64,000 nucleotides of DNA, taken from NCBI RefSeq assembly GCF_014206975.1, contig NZ_JACHOU010000003.1, forward strand, positions 558,001-622,000, read 5' to 3'. The position numbers were made by a program, and so were the translations under genes. Shown here piece after piece: positions 46,445 through 56,700 of the stretch; the first letter of the stretch is position 1, and every line of letters begins with the position of its first letter. Source of the stretch: Aminobacter aganoensis (GTDB lineage Bacteria > Pseudomonadota > Alphaproteobacteria > Rhizobiales > Rhizobiaceae). Under the pieces are notes generated by a model. That model ran no database searches. It saw only the letters and a program-made list of their open reading frames with translations, and was not told the DNA's origin.

Positions 46445-47635
46445 TCAGCGCGTCGCCTTCAGCGCATCGCCGATGTCGTTGAGCAGGTCGTCGGCGTCTT
46501 CGAGGCCGACCGACAGGCGCAGCGTGCCGTCGTCGATGCCTAGTTCGGCGCGGGCCTCGTCGGTCAGGTTCTTGTGCGTCGTCGTCGCCGGATGGGTGAT
46601 CAGGCTCTTGGAATCGCCGAGATTGTTCGAGATCAGGATGATCCGGAGCGCATTCTCGAAGGCGAAGGCCGCCTTCTTGCCGCCCTTGACGTCAAAGCAG
46701 ATCAACGTCGAGCCGCCCTTCATCTGGCGCTTGATGATGTCGGCCTGCGGGTGGTCGGCGCGGCCCGGATAGATCAGGCGCGACACTTCCGGGCTCTCGG
46801 CCAGGAAGTCGGCGATCCTGGCGGCGGCCTCGGTCTGCTGGCGCACGCGCAGCGGCAGCGTTTCCAGGCCCTTGAGCAGGGTCCAGGCGTTAAACGGCGA
46901 CAGGCTCGGTCCGGTGTGGCGGAAATAGTCGTGCAGGTTCTCGTCGATCCACTTCTTGTCGGAGAGGATGACGCCGCCGAGGCAGCGGCCCTGACCGTCG
47001 ATGTGCTTGGTGGCGGAGTAGACGACGATGTGGGCGCCGAGTTCGAGCGGCTTCTGCTGCATCGGCGTGGCGAAGACGTTGTCGACGACGACGCGGGCGC
47101 CGACGGAGTTGGCGAGTGCCGCAACCGCGGCGATGTCGATCACCTCGAGCGTCGGGTTGGTCGGGCTTTCCAGGAAGAACAGCTTGGTGTTGGGCCGGAC
47201 GGCCTTTTCCCAGTTCCCGATGACGGTGCCGTCGACCAGCGTCGCTTCGATGCCATAGCGTGGTGCCAGCGTCTCGACGATCCAGCGGCACGAGCCGAAC
47301 AGGGCGCGGGCGGCAACGATGTGGTCGCCAGCCTTCAGGCTGCACAGGATGGCGGCGGTAACCGCGGCCATGCCGGATGCCGTGGCGCGGGCGTCTTCGG
47401 CGCCTTCCAGCGCGCACATGCGCTTTTCGAACATGTCGACGGTCGGGTTGGCGTAGCGCGAATAGATGAAGCCCGGGGTCTCGCCTTTGAAGCGCGCTTC
47501 GGCACTTTCGGCGCTGTCATAGACATATCCCTGGGTGAGGTAGATCGCTTCGGAGGTTTCGCCGAATTCGGAGCGGAGCGTGCCGCCATGGACGAGGGTG
47601 GTCTGCGGATTCCAGTTGCGCTTGTCGGAGGTCAT
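46445..47635 (-). CDS. metZ: O-succinylhomoserine sulfhydrylase
   Basis: A 396-residue Cys/Met-metabolism PLP enzyme that makes homocysteine directly from O-succinylhomoserine and sulfide. Motifs are YSRYANPTVDMFEKRMCALE near 60, ATASGMAAVTAAILCSL near 85, and the PLP Lys in VVYSATKHIDGQGRCLGGV near 205. The ATG at 47635 begins MTSDKRNWNPQTTLVHGGTL; codons upstream belong to the regulatory leader. The leader holds a SAM-II riboswitch and a terminator, so expression should fall when S-adenosylmethionine is plentiful. Confidence 0.94.
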   Translation of the reverse strand: MTSDKRNWNPQTTLVHGGTLRSEFGETSEAIYLTQGYVYDSAESAEARFKGETPGFIYSRYANPTVDMFEKRMCALEGAEDARATASGMAAVTAAILCSLKAGDHIVAARALFGSCRWIVETLAPRYGIEATLVDGTVIGNWEKAVRPNTKLFFLESPTNPTLEVIDIAAVAALANSVGARVVVDNVFATPMQQKPLELGAHIVVYSATKHIDGQGRCLGGVILSDKKWIDENLHDYFRHTGPSLSPFNAWTLLKGLETLPLRVRQQTEAAARIADFLAESPEVSRLIYPGRADHPQADIIKRQMKGGSTLICFDVKGGKKAAFAFENALRIILISNNLGDSKSLITHPATTTHKNLTDEARAELGIDDGTLRLSVGLEDADDLLNDIGDALKATR

Positions 47636-47653
47636 GAGCCTAAATCCAGATAC

Positions 47654-47686
47654 AAAAAAACCGGTCGCGAAAAGTCGCAAACCGGT
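47654..47686 (-). terminator. intrinsic terminator in the metZ leader
   Basis: On the minus strand, ACCGGTTTGCGA, CTTT, TCGCGACCGGT then seven T. It stands between the SAM-II aptamer and the metZ start, so it is the probable off-switch of the riboswitch. Confidence 0.88.
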
Positions 47687-47696
47687 CCAAACGCGG

Positions 47697-47754
47697 CCCT
47701 TTAGCGACTTGTTTAACGTGGCTGCAAGCCGACCGGCCAAATCACCACGGGATA
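47697..47754 (-). ncRNA. SAM-II riboswitch (metA motif)
   Basis: On the minus strand it reads ATCCCGTGGTGATTTGGCCG, then GTCGGCTTGCAGCCACGTTA, then AACAAGTCGCTAAAGGG. CGTGG pairs with CCACG (P1); the conserved GATTTGG, the CTTGCAGCCACGTTAAA block and the closing GCTAAAGGG match the SAM-II pseudoknot consensus known upstream of alphaproteobacterial metA/metX/metZ. It is about 60 bases ahead of metZ, with a terminator between. Confidence 0.93.
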
Positions 47755-47899
47755 AAGGTCCTTTAGACCCATGGCCGGCTTGCGTCAATCGCAGGGGCGA
47801 CTAAACGTCTTGGGCCACGCATATGGCCCCGGACGAGCTTCGGGGCCAGCGATCCTCGGCTGTCCGTTCGGATCGGCGGCGCGTAAAGGAGTGAGGCAA

Positions 47900-48988
47900 T
47901 TGCGGCAGTCGGGCATTCTTCCGGACCAGGATATCGCGGCGCTGTTCGCCTCCGGCGCGCTCAAGGCGCCGCCGCTCGATGCCGACCAGATCCAGCCGGC
48001 CAGCCTCGATCTTCGCCTCGGCGCCAGGGCTTTTCGCGTTCGCGCCAGCTTCCTGCCCGGTCCCAATTCGCTGGTCTCGGCCAAGCTCGACCGCCTCAAG
48101 CTGCATGAGATCGACCTGAGCGAAGGCGCGGTCCTGGAGACCGGTTGCGTCTACATCGTGCCGCTGCTCGAAAGCCTGGCCCTGCCGGCCGAAATCTCGG
48201 CCTCGGCCAATCCGAAGAGCTCGACCGGCCGCCTCGACATCTTCACCCGCGTGATGACCGATCGCGGCCAGGAGTTCGACAAGATCCCCGCCGGATATGC
48301 CGGCCCGCTGTTTCTCGAGGTCAGCCCGCGCACCTTCCCGATCGTCGTGCGCAAGGGCTCTCGCCTGTCGCAGATCCGCTTCAGGAAGGGCAATGCCCTG
48401 CTGTCCGAGGCCGAACTGCATGCGCTGCACCTCTCCGACCGGCTGGTCGCCATCGATCCGCCCAACATCTCGGGCGGCGGCATCGCGCTTTCCATCGACC
48501 TCGCCGGCAAGCCGGGCAGCATCGTCGGCTACCGCGGCAAGCACCACACCGGCCTTGTCGATGTCGACAAGCGTGCGGCCCAGGACATCGTCGACTTCTG
48601 GGACCCGATCTACGCCCACGGCGCCGGCGAACTGGTGCTCGATCCCGACGAATTCTACATCCTGGTGTCGCGCGAGGCGGTGCATGTGCCGCCGCTCTAT
48701 GCCGCCGAAATGACGCCGTTCGACCCGCTGGTCGGCGAGTTCCGCGTCCACTATGCCGGCTTCTTCGATCCCGGCTTCGGCCATTCCAGCGCCGGCGGCA
48801 CCGGCAGCCGCGCCGTGCTCGAAGTGCGCAGCCACGAAGTGCCGTTCATCCTGGAGCACGGCCAGGTCGTCGGTCGCCTGGTCTACGAACACATGCTGTC
48901 GCGCCCCAAGGCGCTTTACGGCACCGACCTCGGCTCCAACTACCAGGCGCAGGGCCTGAAACTCTCCAAGCACTTCCGCATGGGCTGA
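47900..48988 (+). CDS. dcd: dCTP deaminase, long form
   Basis: A 362-residue 2'-deoxycytidine 5'-triphosphate deaminase that makes dUTP for dTTP synthesis. It has two dUTPase-like halves instead of one (usual Dcd is about 190 residues), as in rhizobial long-form proteins: SLDLRLGARAFRVRASFLPG, SSTGRLDIFTRVMTDRGQEF, and in the second half GGTGSRAVLEVRSHEVPFIL with GQVVGRLVYEHM. I use the TTG start at 47900 (LRQSGILPDQDIAALF), 8 bases after AAGGAG; GTG 47891 is adjacent. It is divergent from metZ. Confidence 0.9.
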   Translation: MRQSGILPDQDIAALFASGALKAPPLDADQIQPASLDLRLGARAFRVRASFLPGPNSLVSAKLDRLKLHEIDLSEGAVLETGCVYIVPLLESLALPAEISASANPKSSTGRLDIFTRVMTDRGQEFDKIPAGYAGPLFLEVSPRTFPIVVRKGSRLSQIRFRKGNALLSEAELHALHLSDRLVAIDPPNISGGGIALSIDLAGKPGSIVGYRGKHHTGLVDVDKRAAQDIVDFWDPIYAHGAGELVLDPDEFYILVSREAVHVPPLYAAEMTPFDPLVGEFRVHYAGFFDPGFGHSSAGGTGSRAVLEVRSHEVPFILEHGQVVGRLVYEHMLSRPKALYGTDLGSNYQAQGLKLSKHFRMG

Positions 48989-49095
48989 CCTTTGGTCAGC
49001 GCCGCCTGGCCGTTAGTTTGCTTGTCCATTTACAGCCATTGTGCTTGGCTGGACCAGGGACGCCCGGGAAGAGCGCCCGTCAAATGGAGAGGATC

Positions 49096-49872
49096 ATGCA
49101 GATTACCCGGAAGTTCGCTTGCGCAGCCTCGCTCGCAGCGCTCTTGTTGACCCTTGGCGGAGCTTCCGCGCAGGAGAAGCTCAAGATCGGCACCGAAGGC
49201 GCCTATCCGCCCTTCAACACCGTCACCGCCGACGGCAAGCTGGCCGGCTTCGACGTCGACATCGCCAATGCGCTGTGCGCCCAGATGAAGGTCGAGTGCG
49301 AACTGGTTGCCCAGGATTGGGATGGTATCATCCCGGCGCTCCAGGGCGGCAAGTTCGACGCCATCGTCGCCTCGATGACCATCACCGACGAGCGCAAGCA
49401 GCAGGTCGACTTCACCGACAAGTACTACACAACGCCGCTGGCACTGATCGCGCCGAAGGATTCCGCCTTGACCTCGGCCGAGCCCGACGCGCTGAAGGGC
49501 AAGACCGTCGGCGCGCAGGCGTCGACCACCCAGAGCATCTATGCCGAGGACCACTATGCCAAGGCGGGCGCCGAGGTGAAGCTCTATCCAACCCAGGACG
49601 AGGCGGTGGCCGACCTGACCAACGGCCGTCTCGACGCGGTTGTCGCCGACAAGTTCGTGCTGGTCGACTGGATCAAGACTACCGGGCAGGATTGCTGCAA
49701 GATGATCGGCGACCTCAAGGGCACCGACTCGCTGACCGGCATCGCCGTGCGCAAGGGCGACCCGCTGCGCGAGAAGCTGAACGCCGCGATCGACGCCATC
49801 GTCAAGGACGGCACCTACGCCAAGATCAACGCCAAGTATTTCGACTTCGACATCTACGGCGCGCAGGACTGA
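49096..49872 (+). CDS. periplasmic cationic amino-acid-type binding protein
   Basis: 258 residues: signal peptide QITRKFACAASLAALLLTLG (cleavage near ASAQE) and an SBP_bac_3 fold similar to lysine/arginine/ornithine-binding proteins: IGTEGAYPPFNTVTADGKLA, GFDVDIANALCAQMKVECEL, DWDGIIPALQGGKFDAIVAS, DLTNGRLDAVVADKFVLVDW. ATG 49096 follows GGAGAGG. No permease genes follow; a strong terminator ends the transcript. Confidence 0.9.
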   Translation: MQITRKFACAASLAALLLTLGGASAQEKLKIGTEGAYPPFNTVTADGKLAGFDVDIANALCAQMKVECELVAQDWDGIIPALQGGKFDAIVASMTITDERKQQVDFTDKYYTTPLALIAPKDSALTSAEPDALKGKTVGAQASTTQSIYAEDHYAKAGAEVKLYPTQDEAVADLTNGRLDAVVADKFVLVDWIKTTGQDCCKMIGDLKGTDSLTGIAVRKGDPLREKLNAAIDAIVKDGTYAKINAKYFDFDIYGAQD

Positions 49873-49886
49873 CGCCTGCGGATAAC

Positions 49887-49924
49887 AAAAAGGCCAGGCG
49901 TTCGATCGAGCGCCTGGCCTTTTT
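49887..49924 (+). terminator. intrinsic terminator after the binding-protein gene
   Basis: AAAAGGCCAGGCG, TTCGATCGAG, CGCCTGGCCTTTTT: a perfect stem with A-tract and T-run, 15 bases after the stop. It lies 10 bases before the left 54-bp tRNA repeat. Confidence 0.95.
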
Positions 49925-49934
49925 CGTGTCCGGA

Positions 49935-49988
49935 AATCTGGAGCGGGTAGCGGGAATCGAACCCGCGCGTTCAGCTTGGGAAGCTGAC
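49935..49988 (-). repeat. left attachment repeat: truncated tRNA-Gly 3' end
   Basis: 54 bases identical to 52785-52838: the 3' half of tRNA-Gly (from CCA through the T-arm to the anticodon stem, GTCAGCTTCCCAAGCTGAAC) without the D-arm and 5' acceptor strand. It is the displaced original 3' end produced by site-specific integration. Confidence 0.92.
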
Positions 49989-50014
49989 GTGCGGAGCTGC
50001 AACAAGGGATCGAT

Positions 50015-50758
50015 CTAGCGGGACGCTACGATCCAGCCGCGAGTATTTCGCTTCTGCCGTATGTCTGTCGTGAAGCCGGCCTCGGCAAGCCTGCCTAGCA
50101 ACTGTTCGAGTGATGCCCCTTCCACTAGGTCAACATGGTAGAGCACCAACATCATGCGGACCTTCCGGAGTAACTCGATTGGAGTCGACAAGAGGATCGG
50201 AAATTCGGCGCCTTCGCAATTGAACTTGATGAACGACACGTCCTTGATCTCGTGAGCCGCCATGAAGCTAGAAAGCGACATTGCAGGCACTCGCTCGCCC
50301 TTGGGCGACAATTGCTTCATTATCGAGTGGCCCCAGTTGCCGCGATCATGGTGCAGCGTGACCTCGCCGTCCTTGTCCGTCAGTGCAAGACGATGGGCAA
50401 TGACGTTGAGTGCCGGGTTCAGAGCGGCGTTGACTCGGAGATAGTTGTAGGTTTCCGCGCTTGCCTCGATAGCATGAACCGTCCCATTCGAGGCTTTAGA
50501 GGCGGCGGTCAGTGCGAAAGTGCCAATATGAGCGCCGATGTCGATCACGACGTCGGAAGCAGTTGGCTGGTACTCCGGAACGCCTGCAAAAAATATGTCG
50601 TTCTCAAAGCTATGGGCGATGACCTTTTCGTCAGCGGTACCTTCACGATAGGCTACATCGAAACCACCAAACCGATTGATTGCCATCTGATAATTGGCTT
50701 CGCCAGGGTGGAAGGCGGCCTTGGCGTTGCGGAACCGTTTTTTCAGATGAAGTTTCAT
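50015..50758 (-). CDS. FkbM-family methyltransferase
   Basis: A 247-residue SAM-dependent methyltransferase of the FkbM type, which O-methylates sugars or small glycans. Motif I is SDVVIDIGAHIGTFALTAAS near 85, followed by VHAIEASAETYNYLRVNAAL, LHHDRGNWGHS, and the FkbM-typical FIKFNCEGAEFPIL near 175 (the usual KxDxEG is KFNCEG here). The ATG overlaps the stop of the glycosyltransferase gene (ATGA), so the two are coupled. Confidence 0.85.
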   Translation of the reverse strand: MKLHLKKRFRNAKAAFHPGEANYQMAINRFGGFDVAYREGTADEKVIAHSFENDIFFAGVPEYQPTASDVVIDIGAHIGTFALTAASKASNGTVHAIEASAETYNYLRVNAALNPALNVIAHRLALTDKDGEVTLHHDRGNWGHSIMKQLSPKGERVPAMSLSSFMAAHEIKDVSFIKFNCEGAEFPILLSTPIELLRKVRMMLVLYHVDLVEGASLEQLLGRLAEAGFTTDIRQKRNTRGWIVASR

Positions 50759-51423
50759 GAGGCCTCCGGCGTCCAAACTGCAACGCCATCTATAATCTGC
50801 TTTTCGATGCCGCGCTTGTCGCGCCAGTCGCGGCCGATATCGATGGCAGTTCGTCTTGTAAATGGACCACCAAAATATACGGCGCGATAGCTTGACGAAG
50901 CGTCCGCTAAAGCCGTGTTCGTACCGTTCATAAACTGTTTATCTGGATCAAGATCGGGGTTCATGTGCTCGCTCGCTATGGATGCAAGCGCTCGCGAGGC
51001 AAACAACGGGCCGACGCCGATCCGCGGCGTTATTTTTCGGCGACCAAGCCGTGACCAGTTGCAAATGGCGATCTGGCCAACGTTTGGCTCCGCCATTTGC
51101 TTTCGCAATCTCTTCAGGCTGATCTTGTGCGACAGGATCCAGTCATCTTCCAAGTGAAGAAACCACTCGGTTTCCGGCTGCTGCCATAGCCATTTGACTG
51201 CCCCGCCATAAGAGGCCTCAGCAGGACGCCGTACCACCGTAGTAAAATATGAGCGGGCTATTTCTTCGACGCGGTTTCCATCTTCTTCGCTGCCCCAAAT
51301 TGGATCGATATTGAGGAAGAACGTCCGAACGGGAAAGCGGTCGAAAAGTTTCTGCTGAAACGACGCTAAAGTTATTGCGACGAGATCTGGTCGCCGGGTG
51401 GCGGTCATAGTTAGGTCAATCAT
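50755..51423 (-). CDS. glycosyltransferase, GT-A-like
   Basis: A 222-residue cytoplasmic glycosyltransferase-like protein. It begins MIDLTMTATRRPDLVAITLA, with the DxD-type motif in WFLHLEDDWILSHKISLKRL near residue 100, and a later DPDKQFMNGTNTALADASSS segment. I prefer ATG 51423, with GGAG 8 bases upstream, over the longer frame from 51468. It heads a two-gene unit with the FkbM methyltransferase on the minus strand and is divergent from the sulfotransferase gene. The sugar and acceptor are unknown; a surface-glycan decoration role is inferred from the neighbours. Confidence 0.75.
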   Translation of the reverse strand: MIDLTMTATRRPDLVAITLASFQQKLFDRFPVRTFFLNIDPIWGSEEDGNRVEEIARSYFTTVVRRPAEASYGGAVKWLWQQPETEWFLHLEDDWILSHKISLKRLRKQMAEPNVGQIAICNWSRLGRRKITPRIGVGPLFASRALASIASEHMNPDLDPDKQFMNGTNTALADASSSYRAVYFGGPFTRRTAIDIGRDWRDKRGIEKQIIDGVAVWTPEAS

Positions 51424-51536
51424 CGCGGCATCTCCAAATTCGGTGGTGATTTTTATCCGCGGTTCCAAGCGGCTTCAACCATTTTCGGGACGCTGGTGGT
51501 CGGCCAAATGCATTAGGGCTTGCTAATGAATTTTAG

Positions 51537-52346
51537 GTGCGCAATACACCCGAGATGCGCCGCAAAGAAATGTCGAAGCTGCTGGATCACGTCCATCTGT
51601 CACCTCGGTTTCGGTATGTTTACGTCGACACACCCAAGGTTGCCTGCTCAACTATTAAGCGTGCGCTGCAAAGCGCCGAAAGAGGATACGCGGTAGACGG
51701 CGGAGAAGCGTCTGGCGGCAAGTTTGGTTATTCGGAAACCCTCCTAACCGTTCACGACAGGTCCAAATCGCCTCTGAGGCGCCCATCCAATCGCTGGGCA
51801 CTCAGGTGGGCGCTGGCCAGGGCAAGTGTATCATTTTGCTTTGTTAGAAACCCCTATGCTCGCGTCCTCTCGGCCTATCTGGACAAAATCGCTACAAACG
51901 AGAATAGGCGAGAGATTTTTTTGCGTGGTCTGGTTGAAGATCCGCGCGAGCCGATATCGTTCGCACAATTCTTGGACGTCGTCTCAGGTCAGACGCCAGA
52001 CACAATGAACGCCCATTGGCGTCCGCAATGCTATCACAACATGATAGATTCTATCGGCTACGACTTTATAGGTGCATTTGAAACGTTGAATTCCGATTTG
52101 TTGGAAATCCTTAAAATAGCTACACCATCGGCAATAAGTTTTGTGAGTGCCGTCGACGAACATCGTACGTCGGCCATGGAGTATTTGAAACAATACTACG
52201 AATTCGAATCTTCTGTGAGATCAGTGCAGTCTATCTACAAAAGAGATTTTGAAGTCTTTGGCTATTCCATCGATCTCAATAAATCCAGCGATAGGCCGGC
52301 CTATGCCGGCTTTAGCTCACGCAGGTTCTTGAAATCGATGTCATAG
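51537..52346 (+). CDS. sulfotransferase family 2-like protein
   Basis: Up to 269 residues from GTG 51537 (ATG 51555 is an alternative). The PAPS 5'-phosphate loop resembles YVYVDTPKVACSTIKRALQS near 30, and the 3'-phosphate segment SFCFVRNPYARVLSAYLDKI near 100 fits carbohydrate sulfotransferases (PF03567-type). The C-terminal YKRDFEVFGYSI motif is also typical of the family. It would transfer sulfate to a glycan. The base composition is lower in GC than the surrounding core genes, supporting recent acquisition with the island. Confidence 0.85.
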   Translation: MRNTPEMRRKEMSKLLDHVHLSPRFRYVYVDTPKVACSTIKRALQSAERGYAVDGGEASGGKFGYSETLLTVHDRSKSPLRRPSNRWALRWALARASVSFCFVRNPYARVLSAYLDKIATNENRREIFLRGLVEDPREPISFAQFLDVVSGQTPDTMNAHWRPQCYHNMIDSIGYDFIGAFETLNSDLLEILKIATPSAISFVSAVDEHRTSAMEYLKQYYEFESSVRSVQSIYKRDFEVFGYSIDLNKSSDRPAYAGFSSRRFLKSMS

Positions 52347-52596
52347 CTTTCGGATGGTCGGCGGCGAAATCCGCCCTTCAGTCGGTCTCCGAGCCAACGT
52401 CATCAGTAGCGACTCATACACCCATACAATGCGTCGAATACAACATCATGAATGGCGCGGCGACCATGACATGCCGCACACATTTTGCGCCGGTCACCCG
52501 CGCCCGCGCCCATCGGACTGTCTGCCACAACGGAGGAAATCCAATAGACCGTAGCAAGTTCTACCTTGCGCGCACTCATGCGGTGTGTTCGGGCCG

Positions 52597-52690
52597 CCGC
52601 GGCACGTTGTACCACTTCGCCTACATCCTGTCGGCCGCCTACCACGAGACGGCGCTCTCCATTCAGGCGATCCGTGAGACACTGCGAAAA
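52597..52690 (+). pseudogene. remnant of a phage lysin/GH19-like gene
   Basis: A frame in 52448-52717 contains FAYILSAAYHETALSIQAIR, close to the AYxLATxYHETxxTMQPIRE signature of phage endolysin/chitinase-like proteins, but the residues before and after do not continue such a domain. It fits a decayed fragment. The rest of 52347-52784 shows no supported gene. Confidence 0.35.
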
Positions 52691-52784
52691 GTAACGCCGC
52701 CGCGCTATTGCTGCTGATTTGTCAATGAAAGGAGTGGTGCCAAGAACCGCCTATTTCTGGGTCTAAAGATCGTACCCAAAGCAC

Positions 52785-52838
52785 AATCTGGAGCGGGTAG
52801 CGGGAATCGAACCCGCGCGTTCAGCTTGGGAAGCTGAC
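52785..52838 (-). repeat. right attachment repeat inside intact tRNA-Gly
   Basis: Identical over 54 bases to 49935-49988; it diverges immediately on either side (CACAATCTG against GAAATCTG at one end, CTGACAGG against CTGACGTG at the other). Confidence 0.92.
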
Positions 52839-52862
52839 AGGCTACCATTACATCATACCCGC
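52789..52862 (-). tRNA. tRNA-Gly (anticodon CCC)
   Basis: The acceptor GCGGGTA pairs with TACCCGC. The D-arm has ATGTAATGGTAGCCT, the anticodon stem TCAGC/GCTGA holds loop TTCCCAA (CCC), and the T-arm is GCGGG-TTCGATT-CCCGC. The discriminator is T, and CCA is encoded. It is intact, and it is the integration target of the island to its left. Confidence 0.93.
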
Positions 52863-52990
52863 GCGGGCATCTGGTTAGCATTGCCGATGTTGTTGGGCAA
52901 TCGGGAAACGGAGTGCAGTGCTGCCGTGCCCTTGATGAGGGCACGACAATCGCGATATTCCAGTGAGGCTAGAATCGCAGGAGACTGAGC

Positions 52991-53254
52991 TTGTCCGGAT
53001 TGGCGCGTTTTCTCGGTGACACCCCCTTGCGGGTGTTGATCAAGCTCTTGGTCATCTCCTTCCTCGTCGGCATCGTCATGAGCGCCTTCGGCTGGTCGCC
53101 CTATGACGTGCTCTACGGCATCCGCGATTTCTTCCTCGACATCTGGCGCATGGGTTTCCGTGCCATCGATCGCTTCCTCGGCTATTTCCTGCTGGGTGCG
53201 GCGGTCGTCATTCCGGCCTTCATCATCCTCAGGCTGTTCAGCTACCGCAAATAG
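52991..53254 (+). CDS. DUF6460-like small membrane protein
   Basis: 87 residues with two membrane segments (about 15-35, VLIKLLVISFLVGIVMSAFG, and 63-82, YFLLGAAVVIPAFIILRLF). The opening GLARFLGDTPLRVLIKLL and the GWSPYDVLYGIRDFF segment match the DUF6460 family of Hyphomicrobiales as I recall it. The start is TTG 52991, with GGAG 7 bases upstream. Function unknown. It is convergent with the histone-deacetylase-like gene. Confidence 0.75.
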   Translation: MSGLARFLGDTPLRVLIKLLVISFLVGIVMSAFGWSPYDVLYGIRDFFLDIWRMGFRAIDRFLGYFLLGAAVVIPAFIILRLFSYRK

Positions 53255-53274
53255 GTCGGGCGCAGGCGGATAAC

Positions 53275-54171
53275 TCAGGCGAAGCCGGCGGCGGTCTCGA
53301 ACAGGATGGCGTGCCGCCGGGCCAGCGCTTCGATGTCGTGCGAATAGCCGCCACCGATGACGCCGCACAGCGGAGTGCCGGCCGTGCGGAAATGCCCGAT
53401 GACCATGCTCTCGCGCCGGCGCAGGCCTTCGTCGCTCATCGCCAGGCGCCCGAGCCGGTCTCCTCCATGGGGGTCGACGCCGGCGTTGTAGAACACGATG
53501 TCCCAGGGCGCGCGGCGCGACAGGCCGGGCAGGACCTCGGCCAGCACGTCCAGATAGGCATCGTCGCCGGTGCCGTCAGGCAGGCCGATATCGAGGCCGG
53601 AAGTGGCCTTGCGCACGGGGTAGTTTTTCTCGGCATGCATCGAAAAGGTGAAGACAGCGGGATTGGCGGCGAGGATTTCCGCTGTGCCGTCGCCCTGGTG
53701 GACGTCGAGATCGACGACCAGGATGTTTTCCGCCAGCCCGTCCTCGAGCAGCGCCAGCGATGCCACGGCCACGTCGTTGAAGGTGCAGAAGCCGGCACCC
53801 TGGGCACGCCTGGCATGATGGCTGCCGCCGGCGGTGTTGCAGGCGATGCCGTGCTCGAGCGCGAGCCGCGCTGCCATAAGCGTGCCGCCCGCGGCAAGCT
53901 GGGCACGGCGTGACACACGCTCGCCGACGGGGAAGCCGATTTCACGTTCGATGTGGGCCGGAACGGTGCAGCTCAGCACCTGCTCGACATAGCCGGGCTC
54001 ATGCGCGAGGCGCAGCCAGCGGGGCGCAATCGGTTCCGCCCGATGGAGCCCGCCCGTCAGGTCCAGGGCATGCAGCCGTTCCATCAGCTGGCGGTACTTG
54101 CCCATCGGAAAGCGGTGGTCCGGGGCAAAGCCGGCGTCGTAGTCGGGATGGCTGACGATCTGCAGCGGCAT
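53275..54171 (-). CDS. histone deacetylase-family (class II-type) deacetylase
   Basis: A 298-residue zinc-dependent amidohydrolase of the HDAC/acetylpolyamine-deacetylase family. Active-site motifs are NTAGGSHHARRAQGAGFCTF near 135, the ligand DLDVHQGDGTAEIL near 170, and FYNAGVDPHGGDRLGRL near 250. Bacterial homologues remove acetyl groups from small molecules or proteins; the substrate here is unknown. I use ATG 54171 (MPLQIVSHPDYDAGFAPDHR), giving the family's normal length; a longer frame adds a low-complexity Pro/Ala stretch. It is divergent from the MATE transporter gene. Confidence 0.88.
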   Translation of the reverse strand: MPLQIVSHPDYDAGFAPDHRFPMGKYRQLMERLHALDLTGGLHRAEPIAPRWLRLAHEPGYVEQVLSCTVPAHIEREIGFPVGERVSRRAQLAAGGTLMAARLALEHGIACNTAGGSHHARRAQGAGFCTFNDVAVASLALLEDGLAENILVVDLDVHQGDGTAEILAANPAVFTFSMHAEKNYPVRKATSGLDIGLPDGTGDDAYLDVLAEVLPGLSRRAPWDIVFYNAGVDPHGGDRLGRLAMSDEGLRRRESMVIGHFRTAGTPLCGVIGGGYSHDIEALARRHAILFETAAGFA

Positions 54172-54289
54172 GGGGGAGGGCTGAACCAAGGGGGTGAAAT
54201 CGATTGACCCCGATACATAAACGGTTGCCGGTGTTGGCGAAACCGGGGCATGTGCCCGAGCGGGAGAAACGGCAGGAGGAGGATTCTCG

Positions 54290-55648
54290 TTGGACATCGC
54301 ATCGCCGGAGGGCCGCGTGACGCCTTTTGCCGTCACCAACCGCTCGGTATTGGCGATTGCCGTGCCGATGACCCTTGCCTATCTGACCACGCCCTTCATA
54401 GGCCTCGTCGGCACCGGCGTGGTCGGCCAGTTCGGCGACGCTGCGCTGCTGGGCGGGCTCGCTGCAGGCGCCGTCGCCTTCGACGTCGTCTTCACCAGCT
54501 TCAATTTCCTGCGCGCCGGCACAACCGCGCTGGTGGCGCAGGCTTTCGGTCGTGGCGACGCATCCGAAGAACAGGCGGTGTTCTGGCGCGCGGTGGTGAT
54601 CGCGCTCGTCGCAGGTATCGTGCTGGCGCTGACGGCGCCGCTGACGTCGCTCGCCGGGCAATGGTTCATGTCGGCCGAGCAGCGGGTCAACGAGACGCTT
54701 GATGCCTATGTCCGCATCCGCATGCTGGGCGCACCCTTCGCGCTGATCAACTATGCGATCCTCGGCTACGTGCTCGGGCGCGGCGAGGGCAGCTTCGCGC
54801 TGTTGCTGCAGGCGAGCCTCAACGGCGTCAACATTGCGCTGTCGCTGCTGCTCGGGCTCAGCCTCGGCTGGGGCGTCGAGGGCGTCGCCTGGGCCGCCGT
54901 CGCCGGCGAGGCGGCAGGCATGGCGATCGGGCTTGTCGTGCTGTTGCGGCGCTTCGGGCGCCAGCCGAGGCTGGCGCCCGGGCGCATCTTCGACGCTGCT
55001 GCGTTCCGGCGCCTGTTCGTGCTCAACCGCGACATCATGATCCGGTCGCTGTCGCTGCTCGTCGCCTTCGCGCTGTTCACCCGTCAGGGCGCGCAGTTCG
55101 GCACGGTGACGCTCGCCGCCAACGCGGTGCTGATGAACTTCTTCATTGCCGCAGGCTTCTTCCTCGACGGCTTTGCTGCAGCCGCCGAACAGCTTGCCGG
55201 CCGTGCCGTCGGCGCCCGCTACGAGCCGGCCTTCCGCAAGGCGGTTTATCTCTGCTCGATCTGGGGCTTTGCGCTGGCGGGCAGCATGACGGCGGTCCTG
55301 ATGGTCTTCGGCCCTGATCTTGTGGCGCTGATCTCGACCGCCGAGGACGTGCGGGCAGTGGCCATCGCCTTCCTGCCCTGGGCCGCCTTCACCGCGCTGA
55401 GCGGCGTGCTTGCGTTCCAGATGGACGGCATCTTCATCGGCGCTGCATGGTCGCGCGACATGCGCAACATGATGGTGGTGTCGCTCGTCGTGTTCGTCGT
55501 CGCGCTGCTGACGCTGACGCCGGCCTTCGGCAATCACGGCCTATGGGCGGCACTGCATCTGCTGCTGATCGTCCGCGGCGTCTGCCTGCTGGCGATTCTT
55601 GGACCGCGGGCCAGGGCGACGTTTCAGAGCGGTGCTGCCGCCCACTGA
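54290..55648 (+). CDS. MATE-family efflux transporter (DinF-like)
   Basis: A 452-residue inner-membrane exporter with 12 predicted membrane segments in two pseudo-symmetrical halves; VPMTLAYLTTPFIGLVGTGV near residue 25 and LNRDIMIRSLSLLVAFALFT near 245 head the two halves. DinF-like MATE proteins expel cationic compounds using Na+ or H+. TTG 54290 follows AGGAGGAGGAT. Its 3' end overlaps pyrD, which is convergent, by 25 bases. Confidence 0.9.
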   Translation: MDIASPEGRVTPFAVTNRSVLAIAVPMTLAYLTTPFIGLVGTGVVGQFGDAALLGGLAAGAVAFDVVFTSFNFLRAGTTALVAQAFGRGDASEEQAVFWRAVVIALVAGIVLALTAPLTSLAGQWFMSAEQRVNETLDAYVRIRMLGAPFALINYAILGYVLGRGEGSFALLLQASLNGVNIALSLLLGLSLGWGVEGVAWAAVAGEAAGMAIGLVVLLRRFGRQPRLAPGRIFDAAAFRRLFVLNRDIMIRSLSLLVAFALFTRQGAQFGTVTLAANAVLMNFFIAAGFFLDGFAAAAEQLAGRAVGARYEPAFRKAVYLCSIWGFALAGSMTAVLMVFGPDLVALISTAEDVRAVAIAFLPWAAFTALSGVLAFQMDGIFIGAAWSRDMRNMMVVSLVVFVVALLTLTPAFGNHGLWAALHLLLIVRGVCLLAILGPRARATFQSGAAAH

Positions 55649-56700
55649 TCTAGCCTCGTGTCGCGCAGCTCGGAGATGCCGTCGAGCCCTTCGCGCGCGG
55701 CAAAGTCGGCCATGCCGCGCACGATGCGTGCCGGCAGCGACGGTCCGGCATAGACCATGCCGGTATAGAGCTGGACGAGATCGGCACCGGCTCGGATCTT
55801 TTCGAGCGCGGTCTCGGTCGAATCGACGCCGCCGACGCCGATGATGGCGCTCTGCGGGCCCAGCAGCTTGCGCATCCGGGCCAGAACCGCCGTCGAGCGC
55901 GCAAACAGCGGCTTGCCGGACAGGCCGCCAGCCTCGCCGGTATGGGTCGGGCTGCGCAGGGTAGGGCGGGCGATCGTGGTGTTGGAGACGATGACGCCGT
56001 CGATCGCCTTTTCGGTCACCTCGGCGGCGATGTCCTCGAGTTCTGCCTCGTGCAGGTCCGGCGCGATCTTGAGGAAGATCGGAACCGCATGACCGGCTTC
56101 GGCGCGGGCGATCATGACACTCGCCAAAAGTTCGGCCAGTTGCTCGCGCGCCTGCATGTTGCGCAGGCCCGGCGTGTTGGGCGAGGAGATGTTGACGGTG
56201 AGATACGATGCATGGCGAGCGAAGCGCTTGACGCCGCTGATGTAGTCGCCGATGCGGTTGCTGCTGTCCTTGTTGGCGCCGATGTTGACGCCGACGATGC
56301 CGGGCCGGCCGGCGCGCGCGGCAAGCCGCTTCTCGGCGGCGTCGTGGCCTTCATTGTTGAAGCCGAGCCGGTTGATGACGGCGTCGTCCTCGACGAGGCG
56401 GAAGATGCGCGGCTTGGGATTGCCGGCCTGCGCCAGCGGCGTCACCGTGCCAACCTCGGCAAAGCCGAAGCCGAGGCCGAGCAGCGCGTCGGGCACCTCG
56501 GCATTCTTGTCGTAGCCGGCGGCCATGCCGAGCGGGTTGGGGAAGTCGAGGCCGGCGACCTTCACATGCAGGCGCCTGTCGCGCGGCGCGCGTCCACCGA
56601 CGGGCAGGCCGCAGCGCAGGGCCTTGATCGACAGGCCATGGGCAGCCTCGGCGTCGAAGCTGAAAAGCAGGTGGCGGCCGAGCCGGTCGAATGCGCTCAT
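55624..56700 (-). CDS. pyrD: quinone-dependent dihydroorotate dehydrogenase
   Basis: A 358-residue class 2 DHODH that oxidises dihydroorotate in pyrimidine synthesis, membrane-linked through its N-terminal helices. Motifs are FPNPLGMAAGYDKNAEVPDA near 55, the catalytic Ser in TVNISSPNTPGLRNMQARE near 170, IGVGGVDSTETALEKIRAGA near 300 and LYTGMVYAGPSL. The ATG overlaps the stop of the DUF952 gene (ATGA), so they are coupled. Confidence 0.96.
   Translation of the reverse strand: MSAFDRLGRHLLFSFDAEAAHGLSIKALRCGLPVGGRAPRDRRLHVKVAGLDFPNPLGMAAGYDKNAEVPDALLGLGFGFAEVGTVTPLAQAGNPKPRIFRLVEDDAVINRLGFNNEGHDAAEKRLAARAGRPGIVGVNIGANKDSSNRIGDYISGVKRFARHASYLTVNISSPNTPGLRNMQAREQLAELLASVMIARAEAGHAVPIFLKIAPDLHEAELEDIAAEVTEKAIDGVIVSNTTIARPTLRSPTHTGEAGGLSGKPLFARSTAVLARMRKLLGPQSAIIGVGGVDSTETALEKIRAGADLVQLYTGMVYAGPSLPARIVRGMADFAAREGLDGISELRDTRLDQWAAAPL

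Follow-up and report, generated by a model that had tools for sequence, protein, structure and literature searches.

The window analysed here, a stretch of 64,000 nucleotides of Aminobacter aganoensis, is internal to a contig of 642,899 bases (C3), and the insert which it carries is thus not situated at an assembly break. The insert is delimited by two copies of a 54-bp repeat, identical at 54 of 54 positions, which enclose 2,796 bp and lie 2850 bp apart from start to start; the whole is referred to here as an insert of 2.85 kb (Table 1). On the gene strand, the repeated core extends from the 5' end of the anticodon stem of a tRNA-Gly to 4 bases beyond the end of the tRNA. ARAGORN calls one tRNA over the right copy and none over the left copy, such that the truncated left copy and the intact right-hand gene described in the initial annotation were both recovered, as was the exactness of the repeats. 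A search of the whole genome at up to 3 mismatches revealed only these two copies of the core (none for the reversed-pattern control). A terminator-like inverted repeat (positions 49879-49932) ends immediately before the left copy; in the initial annotation, this copy had been placed just past the terminator of the upstream gene. The intact tRNA and the displaced 3' fragment share the same orientation, as is required of islands in tRNA genes.

Table 1. Features of the insert and of its boundaries, with positions in the window
Feature	Position	Strand	Remarks
Displaced tRNA-Gly 3' half	49935-49988	-	Far att copy, derived from the 3' end of the host gene; left flank matches G006 (empty site) up to the core
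Interval from far att copy to FkbM stop	49989-50014	.	26 bp; an integrase adjoins the equivalent att copy in two prophages
FkbM-domain methyltransferase	50015-50758	-	247 aa from ATG; TTG start at 50776 also possible; PF05050, E 3.5e-16
Glycosyltransferase-like protein (tentative)	50755-51423	-	Overlaps the FkbM start; no Pfam or PHROG match
Sulfotransferase	51537-52346	+	PF03567, E 2.6e-26; phrog_3347 (moron, galactose-3-O-sulfotransferase), E 2.3e-9
Phage endolysin gene stump	52525-52700	+	N-terminal part only; points toward the tRNA
Interval from endolysin stump to tRNA-side att copy	52701-52784	.	84 bp; versus 4.1 and 8.2 kb in two prophages
Second 54-bp core copy	52785-52838	-	Comprises the 3' half of the intact gene and 4 further bases
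Intact tRNA-Gly, anticodon CCC	52789-52862	-	ARAGORN

The G+C content of the insert is 0.534, compared to 0.645 and 0.668 in its flanks. Of its three main genes, the FkbM methyltransferase also matches a methyltransferase family of phages (phrog_8156, E 6.8e-17), and its product shares 86% amino acid identity with a protein of another genome of the genus, G008. The dN/dS ratio of 0.05 between the two (dS 1.8, near saturation) indicates purifying selection on the gene since the split from G008, and is silent on selection inside the remnant. The assignment of the glycosyltransferase-like protein is based on its homologues: one of the four distant ones scanned matches Glycos_transf_2, at an E value (0.002) under the cut-off, and a motif, HxEDDW, which we take to be a glycosyltransferase motif, is invariant in an alignment of five sequences. 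Its single-sequence fold (mean pLDDT 36) was uninformative. The three smaller open reading frames of the insert yielded no Pfam match above the cut-off, and a library of defence genes produced one weak match for the FkbM protein and none for the other two. The three cargo genes probably modify surface polysaccharide, in the manner of phage lysogenic-conversion genes.

Comparison of the three cargo proteins with viral contigs confirmed no relative, and no match was obtained for the sulfotransferase in phages, for the glycosyltransferase-like protein in plasmids or for the DNA of the whole insert in phages. Among ten genomes of the genus, only G008 possesses the pair of FkbM and glycosyltransferase-like genes (73%), on a different contig from its core; the pair is located near a contig end, where by eye the neighbouring genes have a chromosomal appearance and none was recognised as that of a phage. 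In genome contigs, the FkbM gene was traced to ten loci, the closest being in Mesorhizobium sp. SCN 65-20, and inspection by eye of the five loci whose open reading frames were viewed (L109, L110, L112, L113 and G008) revealed no phage genes beside it.

The comparison with related genomes bears on how the insert came to its position. In G006 the site is empty: the two flanks (47000-49988 and 52788-56000) each produce one BLAST alignment, and these meet over a single 51-bp core, with identity near the junction of 272/306 columns on the left and 265/309 on the right. The core is likewise single in all nine other genomes of the genus that were examined. In a sample of the family, in which a 36-nt core was counted at no more than one mismatch, 79 of the 297 genomes contained it (the remaining 218 lack the core at that setting and are uninformative); 78 of these have a single copy, and only the genome of the window has two. 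The empty site and the single copies in relatives therefore define the insert as a precise gain in this genome. Since the bases are host-like up to the left copy and foreign before the right copy, the left copy is the displaced 3' end of the host gene. The insertion at tRNA-Gly is thus real and precise, and the integration at a tRNA 3' end that was proposed in the initial annotation is supported by the very alignment of flanks to relatives that was suggested there as a check.

Between the sulfotransferase gene and the tRNA lies the stump of a phage endolysin gene, which was not part of the initial annotation. The stump has lost its start codon, some 22 internal residues and the C-terminal two thirds of the protein. 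Its DNA (52525-52700) matches the genomes of G001, G003 and G009 in a search of the genus, and a one-segment tblastn search aligned it with residues 1-67 of 234 (E 6.8e-9). Scores against four endolysin loci range from 46.4 to 60.8 bits, compared to 27.4 for the best of 100 dinucleotide shuffles and 22.9 for the reversed sequence. The homologue in G001 is an intact gene of 234 aa and falls in phrog_181 (E 2.1e-20), an endolysin family in the lysis category. Of 50,697 phage records, 300 contain a relative of it, among them 226 of Acinetobacter, 37 of Rhizobium and 10 of Sinorhizobium; in none is 80% of it covered in one place. The insert thereby contains a trace of a gene that is typical of phages.

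Two of the endolysin loci in relatives belong to prophages. The G001 prophage extends over 36.8 kb from att to att, between a tRNA-Phe(GAA) and an identical 49-bp piece of its 3' half, and that of G009 over 46.9 kb, between a tRNA-Val(CAC) and an identical 47-bp piece. Both have a PF00589 integrase gene at a distance of 0.1-0.3 kb from their far att copy, both code internally for tail or virion proteins (PHROG), and in both the endolysin faces the tRNA. Directly 5' of the endolysin, G001 has a 307-aa open reading frame that was taken by eye for a glycosyltransferase (no Pfam or PHROG match), and G009 has one that by eye resembles a sulfotransferase (no PHROG match; its G003 homologue is without a Pfam match), beyond which follow genes for a methyltransferase and, at a greater distance, a pyruvyl transferase (Pfam). 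These prophages are similar to the insert in that their att core spans the tRNA from its anticodon region to its 3' end, their endolysin faces the tRNA, and likely glycan genes lie 5' of it. They differ in their size (about 37 and 47 kb, versus 2.85 kb) and in their integrase and structural genes, of which the insert has none; their target is tRNA-Phe or tRNA-Val, whereas the insert occupies tRNA-Gly and carries other cargo genes. Gene order and orientation in the insert thus agree with both prophages, while the cargo and the strand of the sulfotransferase differ, and some labels in the relatives were assigned by eye. In the window, the sulfotransferase gene shares the strand of the endolysin; in G009 and G003 the two genes are divergent.

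Endolysin matches at E <=1e-10 occur in six of the ten genomes of the genus. A second region of G009, with a virion protein, has an endolysin adjoining a hexapeptide transferase, with a glycosyltransferase nearby, and G003 has a decayed endolysin beside the same sulfotransferase-like open reading frame as G009, with no tail gene by eye. On its 5' side, the second endolysin of G001 has, by eye, a tail-fibre-like open reading frame and not a glycan gene; a tRNA scan of this region (L131) detected none. In G002 and G007, only the C-terminal part matches, to a lysis protein that looks different, and no glycan gene was in view by eye. In light of these exceptions, an endolysin with glycan genes at its side is a frequent but not a general arrangement in the genus.

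The insert itself codes for no integrase. No recombinase was found between the two copies among the main and the three smaller open reading frames (Pfam), as the initial annotation had stated, and of the 12 PF00589 integrase matches in the genome none is located on C3. The further proposal, that a tyrosine recombinase whose attachment site contains the core might be found elsewhere in the genome, gained no support: at up to 3 mismatches the genome has no third copy of the core, and hence no integrase adjoining one. The geometry of the site would suggest a tyrosine integrase as the integrating enzyme. Searches for a phage bearing an integrase at the tRNA-Gly(CCC) site found none. As a weak lead, a viral contig (L088/G326) has a terminase small subunit gene 3' of a tRNA-Gly(CCC) and an integrase on the opposite side, with a single core copy over its entire 22 kb. 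The 54-bp core matches 63 phage and 48 plasmid records, mostly at 80-92% identity among the matches listed. The exception among these, Shinella sp. PSBB067, matches over 50 of the 54 bases at 100% and in two places; the 30 kb around the first place contain one tRNA-Gly and only partial repeats of 14 and 15 bp.

The insert is probably a prophage that was reduced by deletion to its cargo and attachment sites. This reading is based on one gene stump and on the layout shared with two prophages, and both support one of the two origins put forward in the initial annotation, namely the decayed tail of a larger element. The counter-evidence is that the whole phage signal consists of one stump of about 176 bp, with no capsid, tail or integrase remnant found; no trace of head, tail or packaging genes was detected in the insert by Pfam, by PHROG or by comparison of its DNA with phages. 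The signals of age are also in conflict, as the identity of the att copies points to a recent event and the battered state of the stump to an ancient one; the two could be reconciled if the gene had decayed before integration, or if the loss was slow. The site class and the loss of the integrase, with both att sites kept, also fit the definition of a CIME (PMC5704250), whereby the insert would be the remnant of a non-phage island (ICE/IME) in tRNA-Gly, with an endolysin stump acquired from elsewhere, and ICEs adjoining tRNA-Gly are reported in Mesorhizobium (PMC8627217). Such an origin is unlikely: no gene for conjugation or mobilisation was seen in the insert, which has a phage trace instead (an ICE that was deleted completely would be just as invisible), and the stump has the place and the orientation expected from the two prophages.

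The other origin put forward initially was a small passenger mobilised in trans, of a rarely described size class. A mini-island of this type, with both att sites, would be excised and inserted by an integrase encoded elsewhere, on a phage or ICE with this tRNA-Gly as its target, in keeping with the intact and identical att copies and with the 12 integrase matches in the genome. However, the genome has no third core copy and the contig of the window no integrase match, and the ten genomes of the genus contain no second copy of the island, the nearest approach being the pair of genes in G008. The broken endolysin gene inside the insert would be expected of decay. No positive evidence was obtained for the passenger or for the size class, and this origin is rather improbable. 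A tandem duplication of tRNA-Gly, followed by the loss of one 5' half and the capture of genes between the copies, would explain why the left copy occupies the position of the ancestral tRNA 3' end. It was rejected as extremely improbable, based on the exact join in G006, on the single core in the nine other genomes of the genus and in 78 of the 79 core-bearing genomes of the family, and on the lower G+C content of the insert, whose genes are absent from the site in relatives.

Assuming that the insert is a prophage remnant, the course of events may be outlined as follows. A temperate phage would have used a tyrosine integrase to enter tRNA-Gly(CCC) in its 3' half, at a site on the anticodon side, the phage, its enzyme and the position of the crossover all being deduced. 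Integration, for which the empty site is the evidence, would have left the intact tRNA on one side and the displaced 3' fragment on the other. Two or more deletions would then have removed several kb with lysis genes on the tRNA side and, on the far side, the bulk of the prophage with its tail, head and integrase genes. Judging from the layouts of the two prophages, what was left over would be the endolysin stump, both att copies and three cargo genes that probably modify surface glycans. Lacking an integrase of its own, the remnant would not be expected to excise unaided and would be inherited with the chromosome, and its glycan genes may have been retained for surface modification.

As a remnant of this nature, the insert is a neat and fairly ordinary case of prophage decay, of a kind already known. 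Phage-related sequences of 3.24-88.98 kb are listed for Sinorhizobium meliloti (PMC11476347), and the incomplete or cryptic prophages described there resemble the insert as phage traces at a tRNA gene in a rhizobial genome, the insert being slightly below the smallest size listed. An enrichment of integrases among incomplete prophages is reported elsewhere (PMC7744054), while the insert has none. A CIME, as described (PMC5704250), shares the retention of att sites and the loss of integration genes, and either might conceivably ride with a later element at the same site, yet a CIME is defined as a decayed ICE or IME, and the sole mobile-element gene trace in the window is that of a phage. The tDNA islands of Islander (PMC4383910) share the tRNA, the displaced 3' fragment in the right orientation and the anticodon-centred class. 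The presence of an integrase gene is tested for in that approach, however, and the insert, which has none inside it by open reading frames and Pfam, would therefore be filtered out. A literature search that combined prophage, sulfotransferase, glycosyltransferase and lysogenic conversion found no report, from which no absence from print is claimed.

An additional locus in the same genome, on contig C23, may be a second, similar remnant. Here an endolysin stump (78% over residues 19-72) faces a tRNA-Met(CAT), a 20-bp exact repeat of whose 3' end is found 7.4 kb away. The locus codes for an acyltransferase, a methyltransferase, a glycosyltransferase 61 and an open reading frame in which a sulfotransferase-like P-loop was noted by eye (no Pfam match), and the contig has no PF00589 match. 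In the 15 kb taken from each of seven relatives, its left flank was not found beside the tRNA, and thus no empty site can be demonstrated there.

The present analysis shows how small a prophage in a tRNA gene can become with both of its att marks still exact. Such an insert would escape any finder in which an integrase is obligatory. It is conceivable, albeit doubtful, that the prophages of this lineage are repeatedly stripped to surface-glycan cassettes and fixed by the loss of the integrase, the phage-borne coat-modifying genes being selected as a heritable shield and the phage itself discarded. Should the pattern prove recurrent, endolysin stumps flanked by a tRNA could serve to locate phage-delivered glycan cassettes that have been kept by their hosts.

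A second candidate remnant without an integrase lies in the same genome as the window insert, at a tRNA-Met(CAT) gene on another contig, C23. It carries glycan-modifying genes and an endolysin stump oriented toward the tRNA, a 20-bp repeat of the tRNA-Met 3' end occurs 7.4 kb away, and its G+C content is 0.565 versus ~0.65 in the flanks. No empty site for this candidate was found among the 7 relatives compared.

Loci considered in this analysis
Feature	Location	Source	Remark
Candidate second remnant	L130:6171-13672	G000 (the window's genome), contig C23	at tRNA-Met(CAT); no integrase
tRNA-Gly(CCC) and terminase small subunit	L088:7093-7884	IMGVR_UViG_3300048586_000622	PF03592
tRNA-Gly(CCC) and 15-bp exact copy of tRNA-Gly 3' end	L101:11779-15001	Shinella sp. 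PSBB067	
Homologue of the window's glycosyltransferase-like gene	L087:334-999	G008 (same genus)	
5' side of tRNA-Gly	52863-52947	window	compared across genus relatives

In the viral contig, the terminase small subunit gene is situated directly 3' of tRNA-Gly(CCC), hinting at use of this tRNA by phages in a different host. The Shinella locus might hold a further small insert in the tRNA-Gly site, the 15-bp copy being located 3.2 kb downstream of the tRNA and separated from it by a transposase-like ORF, as judged by eye.

Within the genus, the glycosyltransferase-like homologue in G008 is interrupted by an in-frame stop, and the reading frame of its FkbM partner is intact. On the 5' side of tRNA-Gly, six relatives (G001, G002, G004, G005, G007 and G009) harbor 2.4-5.2 kb between the tRNA and the DUF6460 gene, with ORFs that by eye are epimerase-, methyltransferase- and glycosyltransferase-like. 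This segment is absent from the window, G006 and G008; in G003 the region is divided between two contigs. The tRNA-Gly locus appears to be a surface-glycan gene hotspot that extends to either side of the tRNA.
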